A stretch of 64,000 nucleotides of DNA from a virus: positions 24,520 to 88,519 of IMG/VR virus record IMGVR_UViG_3300009026_000007. One strand, given 5' to 3'. Positions 8,021 through 56,596 of this stretch are shown one piece after another. Position 1 is the stretch's first letter. Each line of letters starts with the position of its first letter. Made by a program: the position numbers and the translations under genes. The notes beneath the pieces are model-generated. The model searched no databases. It was given only the letters and a program-made list of their open reading frames with translations, and had not been told where the DNA came from.

Positions 8021-8219
8021 TGAGATTTGTGCTAATGGACTTACTGAGAAACCCCCTAAAGATATACCTAAACCTAAATGGGCAACACACTCATTTAAAA
8101 GAATGGGAAGGATTCTTTATGGCAACCTTTACGGTGAAAGTTTGATTTGGGTTAATGAAGAAAGAACCTTGTATTATACAAATGAAGATATAGACCAAGG
8201 GTCTTTGTTAAAATTCTAA
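8007..8219 (+). CDS. Hypothetical protein, 70 aa
   Basis: Begins MNWYNEICANG. The ATG at 8007 follows GAGGAG by a normal distance, so the in-frame GTG at 7992 that would include this site is not used. Overlaps the end of the previous gene by 14 bp. Confidence 0.62.
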   Translation: MNWYNEICANGLTEKPPKDIPKPKWATHSFKRMGRILYGNLYGESLIWVNEERTLYYTNEDIDQGSLLKF

Positions 8220-8228
8220 GAAAATGCC

Positions 8229-8257
8229 TTGACACACCTCTAAAAACCACCTAAGCT
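8229..8257 (+). promoter_or_regulatory. sigma70 promoter
   Basis: TTGACA, 17 nt, TAAGCT, upstream of the gene at 8291. Confidence 0.65.
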
Positions 8258-43110: not shown

Positions 43111-43788
43111 ATGTTACTAGAAAGACCAAGAAAAGACTTAACTTCAAATCAATATACCAGACTTACTGTTATAGATTTCTCACACTTCCATATTCAACCT
43201 AGCGGACAAAGAAAAGCAGTTTGGAATTGTCTGTGTGAGTGCGGAAATCAGGTGAAAGTTAGTCACTCTAACCTTGTTTCTGATCACACTCAAAGTTGTG
43301 GATGTCTTAAGCAAGAAAGAATAACAAAGCATGGTATGTCAGATACTACAGAGTACAGATCGTACCGTGAAATGAAAAACCGGTGCACTAACGAAAATGA
43401 TACAGCTTATAGTTATTACGGAGAACGTGGAATTAAAATCTGTGATCGTTGGTTAGAAGATATGCCTGCTGGATTTAATAACTTTTATCAAGATTTAGGA
43501 CCATGCCCTCAAGGTATGTCTCTAGAACGTATAGAAGTTGAAGGAGATTATACTCCTGAGAATTGTAAGTGGGAAACTGACAGTATGCAGTCCTACAACA
43601 CAAGAATTAAGTCTCATAATACTTCGGGTCGAACTGGAGTTGGTTGGGATAACGCTAAGAATAAGTGGCTTGCTCAGATCGGTTATTTGGGTAAAGTTAT
43701 CTTTCTTGGTAGATATTTTTCTTTTGATGAAGCGGTTTCAGCTAGAGAAAAGGCTGAGATAAAGTATTTTGGACGAACCAAAGAGTGA
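43111..43788 (+). CDS. HNH-AP2 homing endonuclease, 225 aa
   Basis: N-terminal zinc part (CLCECG...SCGCLKQE), an HNH core (YYGERGIKICDRWLEDMP... SLERIEVEGDYTPENCKW) and a C-terminal AP2 unit (GRTGVGWDNAKNKWLAQIG). This three-part plan is common in phage homing endonucleases. It stands free between the 42636 gene and the large terminase gene and has a leader with small hairpins. The next gene starts 41 bp after its end. Confidence 0.88.
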   Translation: MLLERPRKDLTSNQYTRLTVIDFSHFHIQPSGQRKAVWNCLCECGNQVKVSHSNLVSDHTQSCGCLKQERITKHGMSDTTEYRSYREMKNRCTNENDTAYSYYGERGIKICDRWLEDMPAGFNNFYQDLGPCPQGMSLERIEVEGDYTPENCKWETDSMQSYNTRIKSHNTSGRTGVGWDNAKNKWLAQIGYLGKVIFLGRYFSFDEAVSAREKAEIKYFGRTKE

Positions 43789-43792
43789 TGTT

Positions 43793-43825
43793 ATTCCCTC
43801 TAGGTTATAATTATTTAGAGGGAAT
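43793..43825 (+). promoter_or_regulatory. Hairpin covering the large terminase ribosome site
   Basis: ATTCCCTCTA (43793-43802) pairs perfectly with TAGAGGGAAT (43816-43825). The 3' arm holds the GAGGG ribosome site of the GTG at 43830. The loop contains TATAAT (43806-43811) without a clear -35. Terminase translation could be held down in read-through RNA. Confidence 0.55.
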
Positions 43826-43829
43826 TTAA

Positions 43830-45305
43830 GTGGCAGATAATGTAATTGCCCCAGCGAGCCGCCCTCAAGCCATGTTTCTGTCAACTCCTGATTGGGTTGA
43901 TATTTGTTTCTACGGTGGTCAAGCTGGGGGCGGCAAGACTTGGGCAGGACTTGCTCATCACGCTAAGTACATGCACGATCCTCTTTATAGGGGATTGACG
44001 CTTCGAAGAACAACCCCAATGTTACTTAAACCCGGCGCTGTTTGGGATGAAGCAAAACAGTTATACAAGTTACTAGACCCCGATTGTCGTGTAAGAATTA
44101 AAGATTTGAAAATCATTGCTAGTTCAGATGCCGAGATATTCTTTTCGCACTTTGAGCGTGTTGATGATACTGACAACTTTCAAGGTGCACAAATCTCCAG
44201 CTGTGTAATGGAGGAATTGTGTCAGTTCGAAGAATCTCAGTTTAACTATATACTATCTCGTTTGCGTACTAAGGCTAATATGAAGCCTAACATGCGAGCA
44301 ACGATGAACCCAGATCCAGATTCTTGGGTAAGGAAGTATGTTGATTGGTATCTTTATCCAGAAGGTCATGAATTATTTGGAAGACCTGACCCAGCCAAAC
44401 AAGGTGTCATTAGGTGGTTTGTTCGACTTGATAATGAATTGTACTGGGGAGAAAGTAAAGAAGATTTAGAACAACGTCATCCAGATCTTGTTCCGCTATC
44501 TTTCAGGTTTATTTCTGCTTCGGTCTACGATAACCCGCACATTGAAAAGAGTTACATTGCATTCTTGCAAGGTCTTCCCCGTGTAGAAAAAGAAATTCTT
44601 TTGCACGGCAATTGGGAGGCAAGGCCAGAAGGTCAAGGTCTTATAAAACGTGAGTGGTTCAAAGAAGAAGATCAGGAACCAGCATGGTGTGATATTGTTA
44701 AAACAGTACGGGCCTATGACGTAGCGGGTACGCTTAAGTCTTCTGACAGTGCTTACGATCCAGATTACACAGCCTGTATTAAGATTTCAAAGATGAAAGA
44801 TGGCACTTACTTCATTCACGATATTCAAAGAACACGTATTCGTTTTGGTGATTGGAAAGCCTTCATCCTAGAAAATGCACAAAGGGATGGTAATAAAGTA
44901 GATATTGTTTTACCACTAGATCCTAATCCCGCGTCAAAAGCAGCCACGACAATGTTAGCAAGAGAAATCTCAGCGGAAGGGTTCTTTGTGAGAACTATGC
45001 GTGCGAATTCTAGCAAAGTAGACAGGTTCCGCCCATTCGCGTCTATGTGTATGAATGGTGGTATCCGCATTCTAAGGAACTGCGGGACAGACTTTGAAAA
45101 CAAAGTATTCAGTGAGCTTGGCTTCTTTTACAAGGAGTTGGAGACATTCACAGGAGAAAGGAAGTCTGGAAAAAATGGTCATGATGATCTTGTCGATGTT
45201 TGCAGTGATGGCTTTATGATATTAGCACAGAAACAGATTATTCCAAACTTTACCGCAGCGCTTAAAGCTGCAAACCTAACTAAACCAAATCTATTTACCC
45301 AATAG
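43830..45305 (+). CDS. Terminase large subunit, 491 aa
   Basis: Walker A GGQAGGGKTWAG at about residues 31-42, Walker B-like SSCVMEEL at about 123-130, and the nuclease part with DVAGTLKSSDSAYDPDY (about 300) and GHDDLVDVCSDG near the end. This is the ATP-driven packaging motor and head-filling nuclease. GTG start at 43830. Downstream portal gene starts 8 bp after the stop. Confidence 0.93.
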   Translation: MADNVIAPASRPQAMFLSTPDWVDICFYGGQAGGGKTWAGLAHHAKYMHDPLYRGLTLRRTTPMLLKPGAVWDEAKQLYKLLDPDCRVRIKDLKIIASSDAEIFFSHFERVDDTDNFQGAQISSCVMEELCQFEESQFNYILSRLRTKANMKPNMRATMNPDPDSWVRKYVDWYLYPEGHELFGRPDPAKQGVIRWFVRLDNELYWGESKEDLEQRHPDLVPLSFRFISASVYDNPHIEKSYIAFLQGLPRVEKEILLHGNWEARPEGQGLIKREWFKEEDQEPAWCDIVKTVRAYDVAGTLKSSDSAYDPDYTACIKISKMKDGTYFIHDIQRTRIRFGDWKAFILENAQRDGNKVDIVLPLDPNPASKAATTMLAREISAEGFFVRTMRANSSKVDRFRPFASMCMNGGIRILRNCGTDFENKVFSELGFFYKELETFTGERKSGKNGHDDLVDVCSDGFMILAQKQIIPNFTAALKAANLTKPNLFTQ

Positions 45306-51985: not shown

Positions 51986-52786
51986 TTGGATAGAATTCAT
52001 TATTTATATAAGATAATAAACTTAGTGAATAATAAAATTTATATAGGTGTAACTTTCGATCCTGAAGCAAGAAAGAAACAGCACTTCAATATGAAAAATA
52101 AATCAAGCTTAGTTTCTAAAGCTATTCGAAAACATGGAGTAGATAATTTTTCGTTTGAGGTTATTTGTGTTGGTGATCGGAACTTTATCTTTGATCTAGA
52201 AGAAAAAGCAATAGACTTGTATAAATCTAAAGTATCAGGACATGGTTATAATATTGCAGACGGTGGGGCCGGTGGAAGTAAGCCTAGACGTGGAAAAGTG
52301 GGGTTTAGGAAGGATGACAAGCCTGAATATGTAGCTGGCTTTTGGTTTCCGAATAAAAGACTAGCCATGAATTCCTTGAATCTTACTGGAAGTAAGTACA
52401 GGTACAGGAAAGATACCGGAATACTAGGCAATATAACTGTTGCTAGGATGATTAATTACAACAACAAAATCTTAGATGAGCCTTGTTACTACCGTGGTTT
52501 TTGGTTTAATAGTATTTCTAAAGCTTGCCAAATATACTCTATGAATATAGAGAACCTAAGAAAAGAAATTAAGATTGGTCGTTACGAAGAAAGCTCGTCA
52601 ATACAAGATTTTCTTATTGTAAAGAAGTATGTGGTTTTTGGCGTAGAGTACAATTCTATCAAAGAAGCTGCCGCTGCAAATAATATATCAACTGTTGCTT
52701 TAACAGCTCGTTACTATAGAAATAAAAACCCAGAAAATTACACATACTCATACATAAAAGAGGTTATAAACCATGGCCGAGCTTGA
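51986..52786 (+). CDS. GIY-YIG homing endonuclease, 266 aa
   Basis: LYKIINLVNNKIYIGVTFDP is the GIY-YIG start (LYK...KIYIG), R at about 29 and E in LEEKAIDLYKSK. C-terminal parts have helix-turn-helix-like repeats (NSIKEAAAANNISTVALTAR), as NUMOD elements. TTG start at 51986 after AAAGGAT. Inserted between the tail terminator and sheath genes; overlaps the sheath start by 14 bp. Confidence 0.88.
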   Translation: MDRIHYLYKIINLVNNKIYIGVTFDPEARKKQHFNMKNKSSLVSKAIRKHGVDNFSFEVICVGDRNFIFDLEEKAIDLYKSKVSGHGYNIADGGAGGSKPRRGKVGFRKDDKPEYVAGFWFPNKRLAMNSLNLTGSKYRYRKDTGILGNITVARMINYNNKILDEPCYYRGFWFNSISKACQIYSMNIENLRKEIKIGRYEESSSIQDFLIVKKYVVFGVEYNSIKEAAAANNISTVALTARYYRNKNPENYTYSYIKEVINHGRA

Positions 52787-54065
52787 CTCAATAGTCCAAC
52801 TACAGCTTACAAGAGGCTCTACCCCCGTGGAGAGCGCCAGTTTTCAAATCCCCGGTATCTTAGCCACATTTACTAATTTCTCGGAACGTACCCGCACCTA
52901 CACTGATATGGAGGGTGTTGGTGAAGACTTCCGTACAACTGACCCAGTTTACATTATTGCAAGTAAATTGTTTGGTCAATCTACTGTTGGTGCTGTTCCT
53001 CCAAGTATTGTAGTAGGTCGTCGTCAAGTTAACACTGTAAACGGCTCTGTAACTGTACAGAACTCTACTCCTTACACTGTAACTATTAACGGTACTACTT
53101 ATAGCTTCACCAGTGACGCTTCAGCCACTGCAATTGAAATCATTGCAGGTTTGGACACAGCAGTAGGCACAAGCCCGGTAGGTGTAACTTTTACCGATAA
53201 CTTGGATGGTACTTTCACTGTAGGTCCAACTGTCGCTGGTACTCCATGGTCTTTCCGTGCATCCCCTAATATCACTCTTGCAAACGCTACTCCTACTGAG
53301 AGCTATGCAGATGCTGAAGTAGCCATGAATCAAGACAATGGTACTTGGTATGCTCTGTTTACCGACACCCATGTTCAAGCTGATGTAGTTGCTCTAAGTA
53401 ATGTCATTGTAGCACAACGTAAGATCTTCGGTACTTCCTCACAAGATGCTGCTGTAATCACTACTGGTACTACTGACGTAGCTGCTGTGCTGAGTGCTGC
53501 AAGTACAGGCCGTACTTATGGTGTATATCTTCCTACTGCTGATACCGAGTACCCAGAAGCAGCTTGGGCAGGTAGTCAACTAGCTTATACCCCAGGTTCT
53601 AATGATTGGGACTTCAAGCGCGCTGTAGGTGTTACTGTCAGCAAACTTAGTGATACTGCTCGTGTTAACCTTCGCAACAAGAACATGAACATGTACACTC
53701 GTGTTGGTGGCGTTAACATCTTCCAAGACGGTAATATGTTTGATGCTTCTCCGATTGATGAAGTTATCGGCATTGATTGGCTGTATGCTCGTTTGCAAGA
53801 AGGTATCTATTTCCGTTTGATCAACTCCCTAAAAATTCCTATGACCAACCCAGGTTTAGTTATTATCGAGAATGAAATCCGTTCTGTACTCTCACAAGCA
53901 GAGGCTAATGGTTTGATTGATCGCGGATGGAACGTAACCACGCCCGATGTACTCGACATTCCAGAGAACATGCGGGCAGCTCGTACAGCCGCTGTATTCA
54001 AGTTTAATGCACGTCTTGCAGGGTCCATACGTCGCGTCCAGATCACCGGGTTCCTTAGCGTGTAG
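52773..54065 (+). CDS. Tail sheath protein, DUF3383-like, 430 aa
   Basis: The start DSIVQLQLTRGSTPVESASF followed by QIPGILATF, and the end TAAVFKFNARLAGSIRRVQI followed by TGFLSV, fit DUF3383. The middle (about 85-160) holds an inserted beta domain with NGTTYSFTSDASATAIEIIA, a unit also present in the baseplate J-like protein at 62208 (INYTSGASATASEIVSGLNA). The sheath contracts on infection; its presence defines a myovirus. Confidence 0.88.
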   Translation: MAELDSIVQLQLTRGSTPVESASFQIPGILATFTNFSERTRTYTDMEGVGEDFRTTDPVYIIASKLFGQSTVGAVPPSIVVGRRQVNTVNGSVTVQNSTPYTVTINGTTYSFTSDASATAIEIIAGLDTAVGTSPVGVTFTDNLDGTFTVGPTVAGTPWSFRASPNITLANATPTESYADAEVAMNQDNGTWYALFTDTHVQADVVALSNVIVAQRKIFGTSSQDAAVITTGTTDVAAVLSAASTGRTYGVYLPTADTEYPEAAWAGSQLAYTPGSNDWDFKRAVGVTVSKLSDTARVNLRNKNMNMYTRVGGVNIFQDGNMFDASPIDEVIGIDWLYARLQEGIYFRLINSLKIPMTNPGLVIIENEIRSVLSQAEANGLIDRGWNVTTPDVLDIPENMRAARTAAVFKFNARLAGSIRRVQITGFLSV

Positions 54066-54088
54066 ATATTAACGGATCTTTACCAGTA

Positions 54089-54140
54089 TTGACTTCTACA
54101 ATAAATCGTGTATAATCTAAGCTCCATAAATAAAGGAGCT
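54089..54140 (+). promoter_or_regulatory. Promoter and ribosome-site hairpin of a homing endonuclease
   Basis: TTGACT (54089-54094), 16 nt, TATAAT (54111-54116), a near-perfect promoter. AGCTCC (54120-54125) pairs with GGAGCT (54135-54140), hiding the AAAGGAG site of the ATG at 54146. Transcripts from this promoter should start near 54123 and so lack half of the left arm, whereas read-through late transcripts keep the full hairpin. Confidence 0.72.
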
Positions 54141-54145
54141 TTAAA

Positions 54146-55042
54146 ATGCGAAAAGAAACAGAAGTTAATATTGGTGATATTTACAACAGATGGACAATCA
54201 CCTCACAGGTTTATTATAAAACCTTCCCAAACGGCTCAAAGGCAAAGTTTGTGGACTGTACTTGTGAGTGTGGGACTCAGAAATCTCTAAGACTTGGGGC
54301 CTTGACTGACACTAAAACACCAAGTCTCTCTTGTGGGTGTCTTAGAAAAGAAGCTATGGCTAAACTCAGGAAACCTGTAGACATAGGATCAGTTTTTGGC
54401 AGGCTAACCGTTGTAGGGGAAATGGTAAGGGTTAATAAAAAGTCAATCGTAGAAGTGGTTTGTCAGTGCAACCCCATAAGTTTTTATGTAAGGTTAGATG
54501 GTTTAAAGTCCGGCACTACAAAATCTTGCGGGTGTTTCCACAAAGATCTAGTAAAAGATTTATTTACAACCCACGGAATGACAGGAACTACGGCTTACTC
54601 TTCTTGGCAAGGGATGAAAGACAGATGTACTAATCCAAACAACTCAAGAGCAGATCGCTACCTGTTCAGGGGTATTTCTTTCCCTGAGAGCTGGGAGTCC
54701 TTTGAAAACTTCTGGGAAGATATGTCAGAAGGATGGTATGAGGGAGCCGACATAGACCGAATTGATTTTGACGCAAACTACTCAAAAGAGAATTGCCGCT
54801 GGGTTGATAGGGATGTTGGTAACCATAATAAATCTAAACCAGAAGACTGCACATCATCTTATAAGGGTGTTTACTACGATAAACAAAGGGACAAGTGGAC
54901 AGCCCGATTAAACCGTAACGGAATCATACACCTTCAAAAGAGGTTTGATACTGAATACGAAGCAGCTTTAGCTTACGACGATGCATCAGAAGAACATTAT
55001 GGTGATCGACCGAACAAAACTCAAAAGGGAGCGATCCCATAA
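54146..55042 (+). CDS. HNH-AP2 homing endonuclease with doubled zinc part, 298 aa
   Basis: Two N-terminal zinc units (CTCECG...SCGCLRKE, then CQCN...SCGCFHKD), an HNH-like core (FRGISFPESWESFENFWED, DIDRIDFDANYSKENCRWVD) and a C-terminal AP2 unit (SYKGVYYDKQRDKWTARLNR). Free-standing between the sheath and tube genes, with its own promoter. Longer than the 43111 protein by the extra zinc unit. Confidence 0.88.
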   Translation: MRKETEVNIGDIYNRWTITSQVYYKTFPNGSKAKFVDCTCECGTQKSLRLGALTDTKTPSLSCGCLRKEAMAKLRKPVDIGSVFGRLTVVGEMVRVNKKSIVEVVCQCNPISFYVRLDGLKSGTTKSCGCFHKDLVKDLFTTHGMTGTTAYSSWQGMKDRCTNPNNSRADRYLFRGISFPESWESFENFWEDMSEGWYEGADIDRIDFDANYSKENCRWVDRDVGNHNKSKPEDCTSSYKGVYYDKQRDKWTARLNRNGIIHLQKRFDTEYEAALAYDDASEEHYGDRPNKTQKGAIP

Positions 55043-55059
55043 TTAAAAGGTATATTTAA

Positions 55060-55581
55060 ATGGCCGATGGCGTATTGGGCTCATACAGCCCCGAAGCAAT
55101 GGTTGTAATCATCAGTAAGGGTGACTTTGTTCACCGTATTGGTGGTTATGCCGATGGTACTTTTCTAAATATTTCACGTATCACTCCAGCATCAGAACTC
55201 TATGTAGCCTCTGATCTACAAGCTGGGCGTGTTAAACGTCGCAATAAAGCAAGTACTATTTCTTTGACACTGTTTCAACAAAGTTCAAGTAATGCTATTT
55301 TGCAAGAACTGCAACGTGCTGACGAAGAAGACGATAGGAATTCTTGGGTTTTTTCTATCACAATTAAGGATACCTCTGGTACTAGCGTATTCTCATCTAA
55401 CCAAGCATTCATTGCAACGGTTCCAGATGTTGGGTATTCAAATACCACTGAAACTCGTGATTGGATGATCAGTGCCGTAAGTATGGATTCTCACGTTGGT
55501 AGCAACATGGAGTTTGATGCTGCTGAGGTTGCAGCAATGGCAGCAGTCGGTGCTCAAGTTCCAGCTCGGTGGCAGCTCTAA
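55060..55581 (+). CDS. Tail tube-type protein 1 (DUF3277-like), 173 aa
   Basis: SYSPEAMVVIISKGDFVHRI start, RVKRRNKASTISLTLFQQSS and DTSGTSVFSSNQAFIATVPD fit the tube fold of DUF3277. First of three related genes (with 55598 and 56099). Place right after the sheath makes it the best tube candidate. Confidence 0.8.
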   Translation: MADGVLGSYSPEAMVVIISKGDFVHRIGGYADGTFLNISRITPASELYVASDLQAGRVKRRNKASTISLTLFQQSSSNAILQELQRADEEDDRNSWVFSITIKDTSGTSVFSSNQAFIATVPDVGYSNTTETRDWMISAVSMDSHVGSNMEFDAAEVAAMAAVGAQVPARWQL

Positions 55582-55597
55582 TAGGTAAGGAAGTATA

Positions 55598-56098
55598 ATG
55601 GCCCAGTTAGCTACTTATATGCCAGAGGAAGTAACGATCCTTCTTGCTGGCATTCCAGTCTCAGGCTTTATCCAAGGGTCATTTATTTCTGTTGACAAGG
55701 ATGTCAAGCCTTTTACATCTAAACGCACTGCTGATGGAACAGTTAGTCGAATGTATAATAATGACCAAACCTATACAATTACGTTGACTCTTTACAGCGG
55801 TAGTGATTCTAACCAACTTCTAACAAGACTTTGGCAATTAGATGAAATTACCCAAAGAGGTAAGTTTCCTTTGATGATCAAAGATGGTAGTGGATCAGAC
55901 TTGTTCTTCTCTACTACAACTTGGATTGAGGGTATCCCTTCTTTAGTTAAGAGTAATCAATACGAACCTCGTGCATGGACATTACGTTCAAGCTCAGCAA
56001 TCATAAATATTGGTGGTAATGGTGATGCTGAATCTATCTTAAATGATATTGTTAGTATTGCTGCTTCTGCTCTTCCAGCATTGAATGGGTTAATTTAA
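55598..56098 (+). CDS. Tail tube-type paralogue 2, 166 aa
   Basis: Same plan as tube protein 1: EVTILLAGIPVSGFIQGSFI, RMYNNDQTYTITLTLYSGSD, KDGSGSDLFFSTTTWIEGIP. It diverges strongly, so not a recent copy. May form the end of the tube, a tube-baseplate adaptor or a mixed tube. Confidence 0.74.
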   Translation: MAQLATYMPEEVTILLAGIPVSGFIQGSFISVDKDVKPFTSKRTADGTVSRMYNNDQTYTITLTLYSGSDSNQLLTRLWQLDEITQRGKFPLMIKDGSGSDLFFSTTTWIEGIPSLVKSNQYEPRAWTLRSSSAIINIGGNGDAESILNDIVSIAASALPALNGLI

Positions 56099-56596
56099 AT
56101 GACTAATTCTTTTAGTGTTGAGACATATTCAGCTTCAGATGTTAAGTTGTCTATTGGTGGTTATATAATCACAGGATGGGATAACTTAAGTATTAATAGA
56201 CGTGTAAAAGCATTCACCCCTGTCTATGGTATTCGTGGTAAGAACACACGAGTCAAGAACGTAGACAGTTCGGCTACTATTACTGTCACTCTTATTCAGA
56301 CAGCACAGAGTAATGATGTGCTGTCTGCAATACATGACTTGGACATTGATGAGGGCACAGCAAGGATTACCTTGACCCTTAAAGATAGCTCTGGAAGAAG
56401 TGTATTTTCAAGCAATGAAGCATACATTACATCCTACCCTGCAAAATCTTTCTCCGGTGATTTTACTTACAACACTTGGGAAATTATTTTACAGTCTACA
56501 CAATCATACACTGTTGGCGGGAATGGCAGACCAAGCACTGGCCTTCTAGATAATATCATCAGTGATGCAACTGACTTTGTTAGTGATTTATTTTAA
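56099..56596 (+). CDS. Tail tube-type paralogue 3, 165 aa
   Basis: DVKLSIGGYIITGWDNLSIN, RVKNVDSSATITVTLIQTAQ and KDSSGRSVFSSNEAYITSYP repeat the tube pattern. Its ATG follows the previous stop directly. Three tube paralogues in a row are unusual. Confidence 0.74.
   Translation: MTNSFSVETYSASDVKLSIGGYIITGWDNLSINRRVKAFTPVYGIRGKNTRVKNVDSSATITVTLIQTAQSNDVLSAIHDLDIDEGTARITLTLKDSSGRSVFSSNEAYITSYPAKSFSGDFTYNTWEIILQSTQSYTVGGNGRPSTGLLDNIISDATDFVSDLF

Follow-up and report, generated by a model that had tools for sequence, protein, structure and literature searches.

A probable promoter-in-hairpin leader insulating a mobile homing endonuclease gene from a phage tail operon

Our analyses indicate that the short leader of a homing endonuclease gene (HEG) lodged among phage tail genes is probably a switch, a promoter embedded in a hairpin, that insulates this mobile gene from the tail operon it entered. 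Messages reading through from the upstream tail sheath gene would carry the full leader and fold it into three nested stems, burying the Shine-Dalgarno sequence, the AUG and codons 5-11, so that the nuclease would be barely translated. RNA initiated at the sigma70-type promoter located in the 5' arm would be missing the 5' arms of the outer and middle stems and, with an expected start at 54122-54126, most or all of the inner 5' arm as well, leaving the ribosome site open. Activity of the promoter, the position of its start, a difference in translation between the two messages and a mainly early short message are inferences from the sequence. The mechanism, as predicted, is well supported by comparison.

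The nuclease gene and its genomic context

The window, a stretch of 64 kb analysed here, was taken from a virus record of 88.5 kb, and its tail genes are nearest to those of Pseudomonas myoviruses of about 90-100 kb. The free-standing HEG (54146-55042, plus strand, 298 aa) separates the tail sheath gene (52773-54065, plus strand; phrog_205, E 1.5e-93; stop codon at 54063-54065), the source of the read-through RNA, from a tail-tube-like gene (55060-55581, plus strand; phrog_280) with a homologue annotated as tail tube in phage vB_PsaM_M1. The initial annotation had taken the product for a homing endonuclease, and the profile matches point the same way: phrog_374 (HNH endonuclease) matches this reading frame with an E value of 4.6e-65, and several further HNH families match too. 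Its C-terminal domain appears to be AP2-like, the Pfam AP2 score (E 3.4e-7, 30.9 bits) narrowly missing the curated threshold of 33.3, and we designate the protein as HNH/AP2 homing-endonuclease-like.

A host-type promoter inside the leader

The consensus scan located a -35 box TTGACT (54089-54094, plus strand) and, 16 nt after it, a -10 box TATAAT (54111-54116, plus strand), the latter exactly where the initial annotation had noticed it. Together they match 11 of the 12 sigma70 consensus bases and constitute the top site within 52500-56500; in a weighted scan the pair ranks second among the sigma70-like sites of the whole 64 kb and is the only strong plus-strand site of the structural module (39-64 kb). 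The remaining strong sigma70-like sites of this module (43575, 46415 and 59014) are on the minus strand and recall the early antisense RNAs observed over the structural genes of phage PAK_P3 (PMC4933390).

Predicted fold of the read-through leader

The HEG start codon begins at 54146 and its leader is 66 nt long. In read-through RNA this leader is predicted to form three nested stems, namely an inner hairpin, a stem over the AUG, and an outer stem of 18 bp, all with both arms on the plus strand. The 5' arm of the outer stem (54080-54097) contains the -35 box, and its 3' arm (54160-54177) is in codons 5-11. The middle stem, of 6 bp, pairs 54106-54111 with the AUG and codon 2 (54146-54151). In the inner hairpin, AAGCUCC (54119-54125) pairs with GGAGCUU (54135-54141), the arm that holds the Shine-Dalgarno sequence AAGGAG (54133-54138). 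This hairpin had already been proposed; it is present, with 7 bp instead of the 6 bp first given to it, and in the predicted structure it forms the core of a larger fold that had been missed. The predicted folding energy of the RNA from 54060 to 54190 is -39.6 kcal/mol; dinucleotide shuffles average -17.5 +/- 3.1 (z -7.15), and none of 200 was as stable, these and the energies below being ViennaRNA estimates that ignore co-transcriptional folding. Taken by itself, the inner hairpin stands out less (z -1.9 to -3.6).

Transcript start and opening of the ribosome site

We expressed masking as the energy needed to free positions 54130-54148, scanned over successive 5' ends of the RNA. The predicted cost is 14.9 kcal/mol for every 5' end up to 54090, then falls to about 9.6 at 54117, 7.7 at 54121 and 4.0 at 54122, and is 2.4-3.2 for 5' ends from 54123 on, so that the sharp drop lies between 54121 and 54122. 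The promoter's -10 position sets the expected start 6-10 nt downstream, at 54122-54126 (plus strand), in or beyond the inner 5' arm, and the resulting short RNA would lack most or all of this arm. Both halves of the earlier proposal are thus reproduced by the model, with read-through RNA masked (14.9 kcal/mol to open) and promoter-specific RNA open (2.4-4.0 kcal/mol for starts at 54122-54126), and its suggested start near 54123 is a reasonable estimate given the position of the -10 box. It is also a critical one, because one or two bases settle the opening: an RNA starting at G54121 would retain a 5-bp hairpin and 7.7 kcal/mol of structure, and neither C54122 nor T54123 provides the purine favoured at +1. 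The inner left arm is the main contributor to the masking, since its removal leaves just 4.2 kcal/mol to open the ribosome site; removal of the outer stem leaves 12.9 kcal/mol. One consideration against the switch is that ribosomes terminating on the sheath gene could melt part of the fold, although the 18-bp stem starts only about 15 nt past the sheath stop and thus beyond it.

Occupied and empty alleles of the sheath-tube junction

We compared 70 IMG/VR loci that encode a related sheath: 34 show a sheath-tube gap of 6-41 bp and about 30 contain a single HEG-sized insert at this position, of HNH or GIY-YIG type. As judged from these loci, the junction is an insertion hot spot for two unrelated HEG families, and close relatives of the window include both occupied and empty alleles of the site. 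Locus L036 (97% sheath protein identity with the window) has a clean 26-bp junction representing the empty allele, and L037 (7291-7407) keeps the first part of the leader and the last part of the HEG, the middle being deleted; this remnant is a relic that speaks for HEG loss after gain. The leader is missing from empty junctions. The occupied locus L005 has a 66-nt leader without a single difference from the window's (100% identity), at 90% identity for sheath DNA and 81% for HEG DNA (HEG dN 0.11, dS 0.84). The GIY-YIG nucleases found at the junction in L053, L039, L058 and L066 possess a C-terminal region (at about 8034-8252) 51-59% identical to that of the window HNH/AP2 protein, which suggests that nuclease domains have been swapped over a shared DNA-binding domain.

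Comparative tests of the leader design

We compared the leaders of 30 junction HEGs (12 HNH and 18 GIY-YIG). The -10 box of the best promoter is 32-43 nt ahead of the start codon in 29 of them, with spacers of 16-18 nt in nearly all. The promoter score is equalled by at most 5% of shuffles in 24 of the 30 leaders and is no better than chance against shuffles in the other six; L103 is without the promoter-in-hairpin arrangement. Opening the ribosome site takes a median of about 15 kcal/mol in the read-through RNAs of the set and of 3.5-3.8 in RNAs beginning at the predicted start. When all leaders are cut at the same position, -24, and relief of at least 8 kcal/mol is required, 26/30 junction HEGs respond, versus 2/267 other genes in the same tail modules.

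This contrast with the control genes bears on an alternative function of the stem-loop, which might serve mainly to separate the sheath and tube messages as an RNase III site or a weak terminator, its overlap with the ribosome site being incidental. We consider this unlikely. The 18-bp outer stem would in principle be long enough for RNase III, and some annotators label such hairpins terminators, as in Enterococcus phage 113. However, the hairpin is not trailed by a U-run and is missing from the output of the terminator scan, which led us to reject termination; the pairing is centred on the Shine-Dalgarno sequence and AUG of the HEG, empty junctions are devoid of the leader, the ribosome-site measure singles out HEGs, and the promoter in the 5' arm would be left unexplained.

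The switch also has to be distinguished from a mere coincidence of promoter and hairpin, as a strong Shine-Dalgarno sequence will often find a pairing partner in an A+T-rich promoter lying ahead of it; leaders are short, and a GGAGG motif easily meets a CCUCC-like partner. Exchanging promoter halves between leader groups addresses this directly. In a set of 30 leaders (without L049 and L103, and with PAK_P4 and L113 added), such chimeras, which have like promoters and Shine-Dalgarno sequences, reach a median of 7.4 kcal/mol, against 15.8 for the native leaders, and in 27 of the 30 no chimera attains the native value. In alignment A1, which comprises eight leaders, 97.5% of cells are paired and 11 are altered on both sides, with a covariation score of 0.395 versus at most 0.22 for slid versions, the tool's own shuffle control being one that leaves relatedness in place. 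The compensatory changes of A1 (columns 26, 27 and 29) fall outside the Shine-Dalgarno core. Coincidence is thus highly improbable, and pairing from composition alone is ruled out by the shuffles and the chimeric leaders. Many leaders may share ancestry, but their recurrence is not that of a single sequence counted repeatedly, because they form 23 groups at 80% identity. The pattern that we interpret as a switch thus returns, with compensatory changes, in HEGs that are not related to one another.

Related leaders in other phages

A GIY-YIG gene has been reported between tail sheath and tube in the Pakpunavirus phages PAK_P4, JG004, Adele and others, in an account whose passages on this gene note the insertion and describe no leader (PMC12846349). 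These phages share the insertion site with the window and differ from it in the nuclease, GIY-YIG instead of HNH, the PAK_P4 leader being of related design. That leader carries TTGACA-16-TATCAT, and its promoter arm is predicted to pair with codons 2-7 and to bury the AUG; the relief predicted upon truncation is smaller, from 12.9 to about 7 kcal/mol. In ZCPS13, with a leader of 83% identity, the stem is kept through compensating changes, and the fixed-window measure gives no relief (5.8 and 6.7).

The same arrangement was found in homologous HNH genes of other structural modules, namely in L014-L016, L123, Enterococcus phage 113 and Rhizobium phage RHph_I1_23, the -35 box often being weak in all these cases. 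The L015 gene follows a capsid-like gene, and L014-L016 have TTTACG-17-TATACT inside a very stable hairpin. In Enterococcus phage 113 (L171, 766-808), a 'terminator' hairpin with TATAAT overlaps the annotated ribosome site of the HNH gene and is probably a mis-annotated leader of the same kind. The design is not a property of all HEGs of the family, as it was detected in only 8 of 57 homologue loci elsewhere, a count that takes in near-duplicates and two junction GIY-YIG relatives.

The leader of the L043 HNH gene resembles GIY-YIG leaders, sharing 44 of 58 positions with that of L038 (equalled by 0/1000 shuffles), and the coding sequences of the two genes show no similarity above shuffles. 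This suggests that leaders move between unrelated nuclease genes, although shared function could account for part of the likeness.

Comparison with T4 and timing of expression

Reviewed cases of the same logic are I-TevI, I-TevII, I-TevIII and segB of T4 and mobE of Aeromonas phage Aeh1: longer transcripts fold a hairpin over the ribosome site, and those initiated at a promoter within its 5' arm leave the site free. All genes under this control are late ones situated on messages for early and middle products; in T4 it is the early and middle RNAs that are silenced and a late promoter that opens the gene (PMC2988022). The window shares with this set the promoter in the 5' arm and, by prediction, the masked ribosome site, and the set includes both GIY-YIG and HNH homing endonucleases, as does the junction. 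It differs in phage group, in the long outer stem reaching into codons 5-11, in its promoter (sigma70-like with a -35 box instead of a T4 late or middle promoter) and in the blocked transcripts, which would come from the structural operon instead of being early or middle. T4 genes e and soc likewise have their ribosome sites sequestered on long transcripts, and late transcripts of e start just upstream without the 5' part of the structure (PMC3014915); unlike the window HEG, these are ordinary phage genes with late promoters.

The analogy with I-TevI drawn in the initial annotation was therefore right in its logic and apparently the other way round in its polarity (PMC2988022): the window does not follow the T4 pattern of a middle or late promoter with early and middle transcripts blocked, its promoter being sigma70-like and its gene placed in the tail operon. 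In RNA-seq of PAK_P3, a distant relative, genes fall into distinct early, middle and late classes, most structural genes belonging to the last (PMC4933390). A sigma70-like promoter in a structural operon, together with these mostly late genes, makes it likely that the polarity is reversed with respect to T4. The early-expressed structural-region ORFs of PAK_P3 (PMC4933390) were considered as counterparts and rejected, as they are not nuclease genes at this junction.

The two grounds for expecting the nuclease to be on early and off late are accordingly the promoter type and the PAK_P3 RNA-seq, and a host-type promoter may act throughout infection. A variant of the switch reading, which denies that expression is confined to one phase, is that the hairpin sets amount and not timing, the promoter being active throughout and the nuclease kept low while tail mRNA is abundant. 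We regard this variant as a serious contender, somewhat short of an even chance. Should the phage lack a replacement sigma factor, its host-type promoters might remain active into the late phase, and the logic of insulation requires no phase restriction; on the other side, the temporal classes of PAK_P3, with structural genes mostly late, make some temporal separation likely (PMC4933390).

Leaders of homing endonucleases in late operons

Promoter-in-hairpin leaders might, with a chance that we place close to even, be a general and portable solution for homing endonucleases invading late structural operons, HNH and GIY-YIG nucleases of several phage groups having come by leaders of one kind through acquisition or exchange. 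Such leaders would confine the nuclease to messages from host-type promoters, in a reversal of the late-only logic of T4. Hairpin control of homing endonucleases was already known in T4-like phages (PMC2988022). What is new here is the collection of about 30 leaders from two nuclease families at one shared insertion site, plus the examples from other phages, and the prediction that in these leaders the embedded promoter is of host type and the surrounding operon structural. Two questions become testable: whether selfish nucleases must be silenced on abundant late messages, and whether they exchange leaders. An RNA-seq-based annotation exists for PAK_P4, and both PAK_P4 and JG004, being laboratory phages, suit testing of the design.

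Other start regions in the structural modules

Promoter hairpins are lacking at GIY-YIG genes upstream of the sheath gene (window 51986, L039:5209, L050:5231 and L080:4703). In some of the relatives the Shine-Dalgarno sequence pairs with the first codons, as in L039, where UAGAGGUAG pairs with CUAUCUCUA, a predicted pairing that would amount to a different way of masking the start. The KIL phages, which have a GIY-YIG gene near the sheath gene, were not counted, their leader being some 290 nt long and the fold absent.

A further structure concerns the large terminase gene of the window (43830-45305), which is directly downstream of another HNH gene (43111-43788). A strong hairpin, AUUCCCUCUAGGUUAUAAUUAUUUAGAGGGAAU, encloses its ribosome site and includes TATAAT (window 43793-43825); this hairpin is missing in other relatives (e.g., L175, L177, L182 and L184) and is also found in L176.
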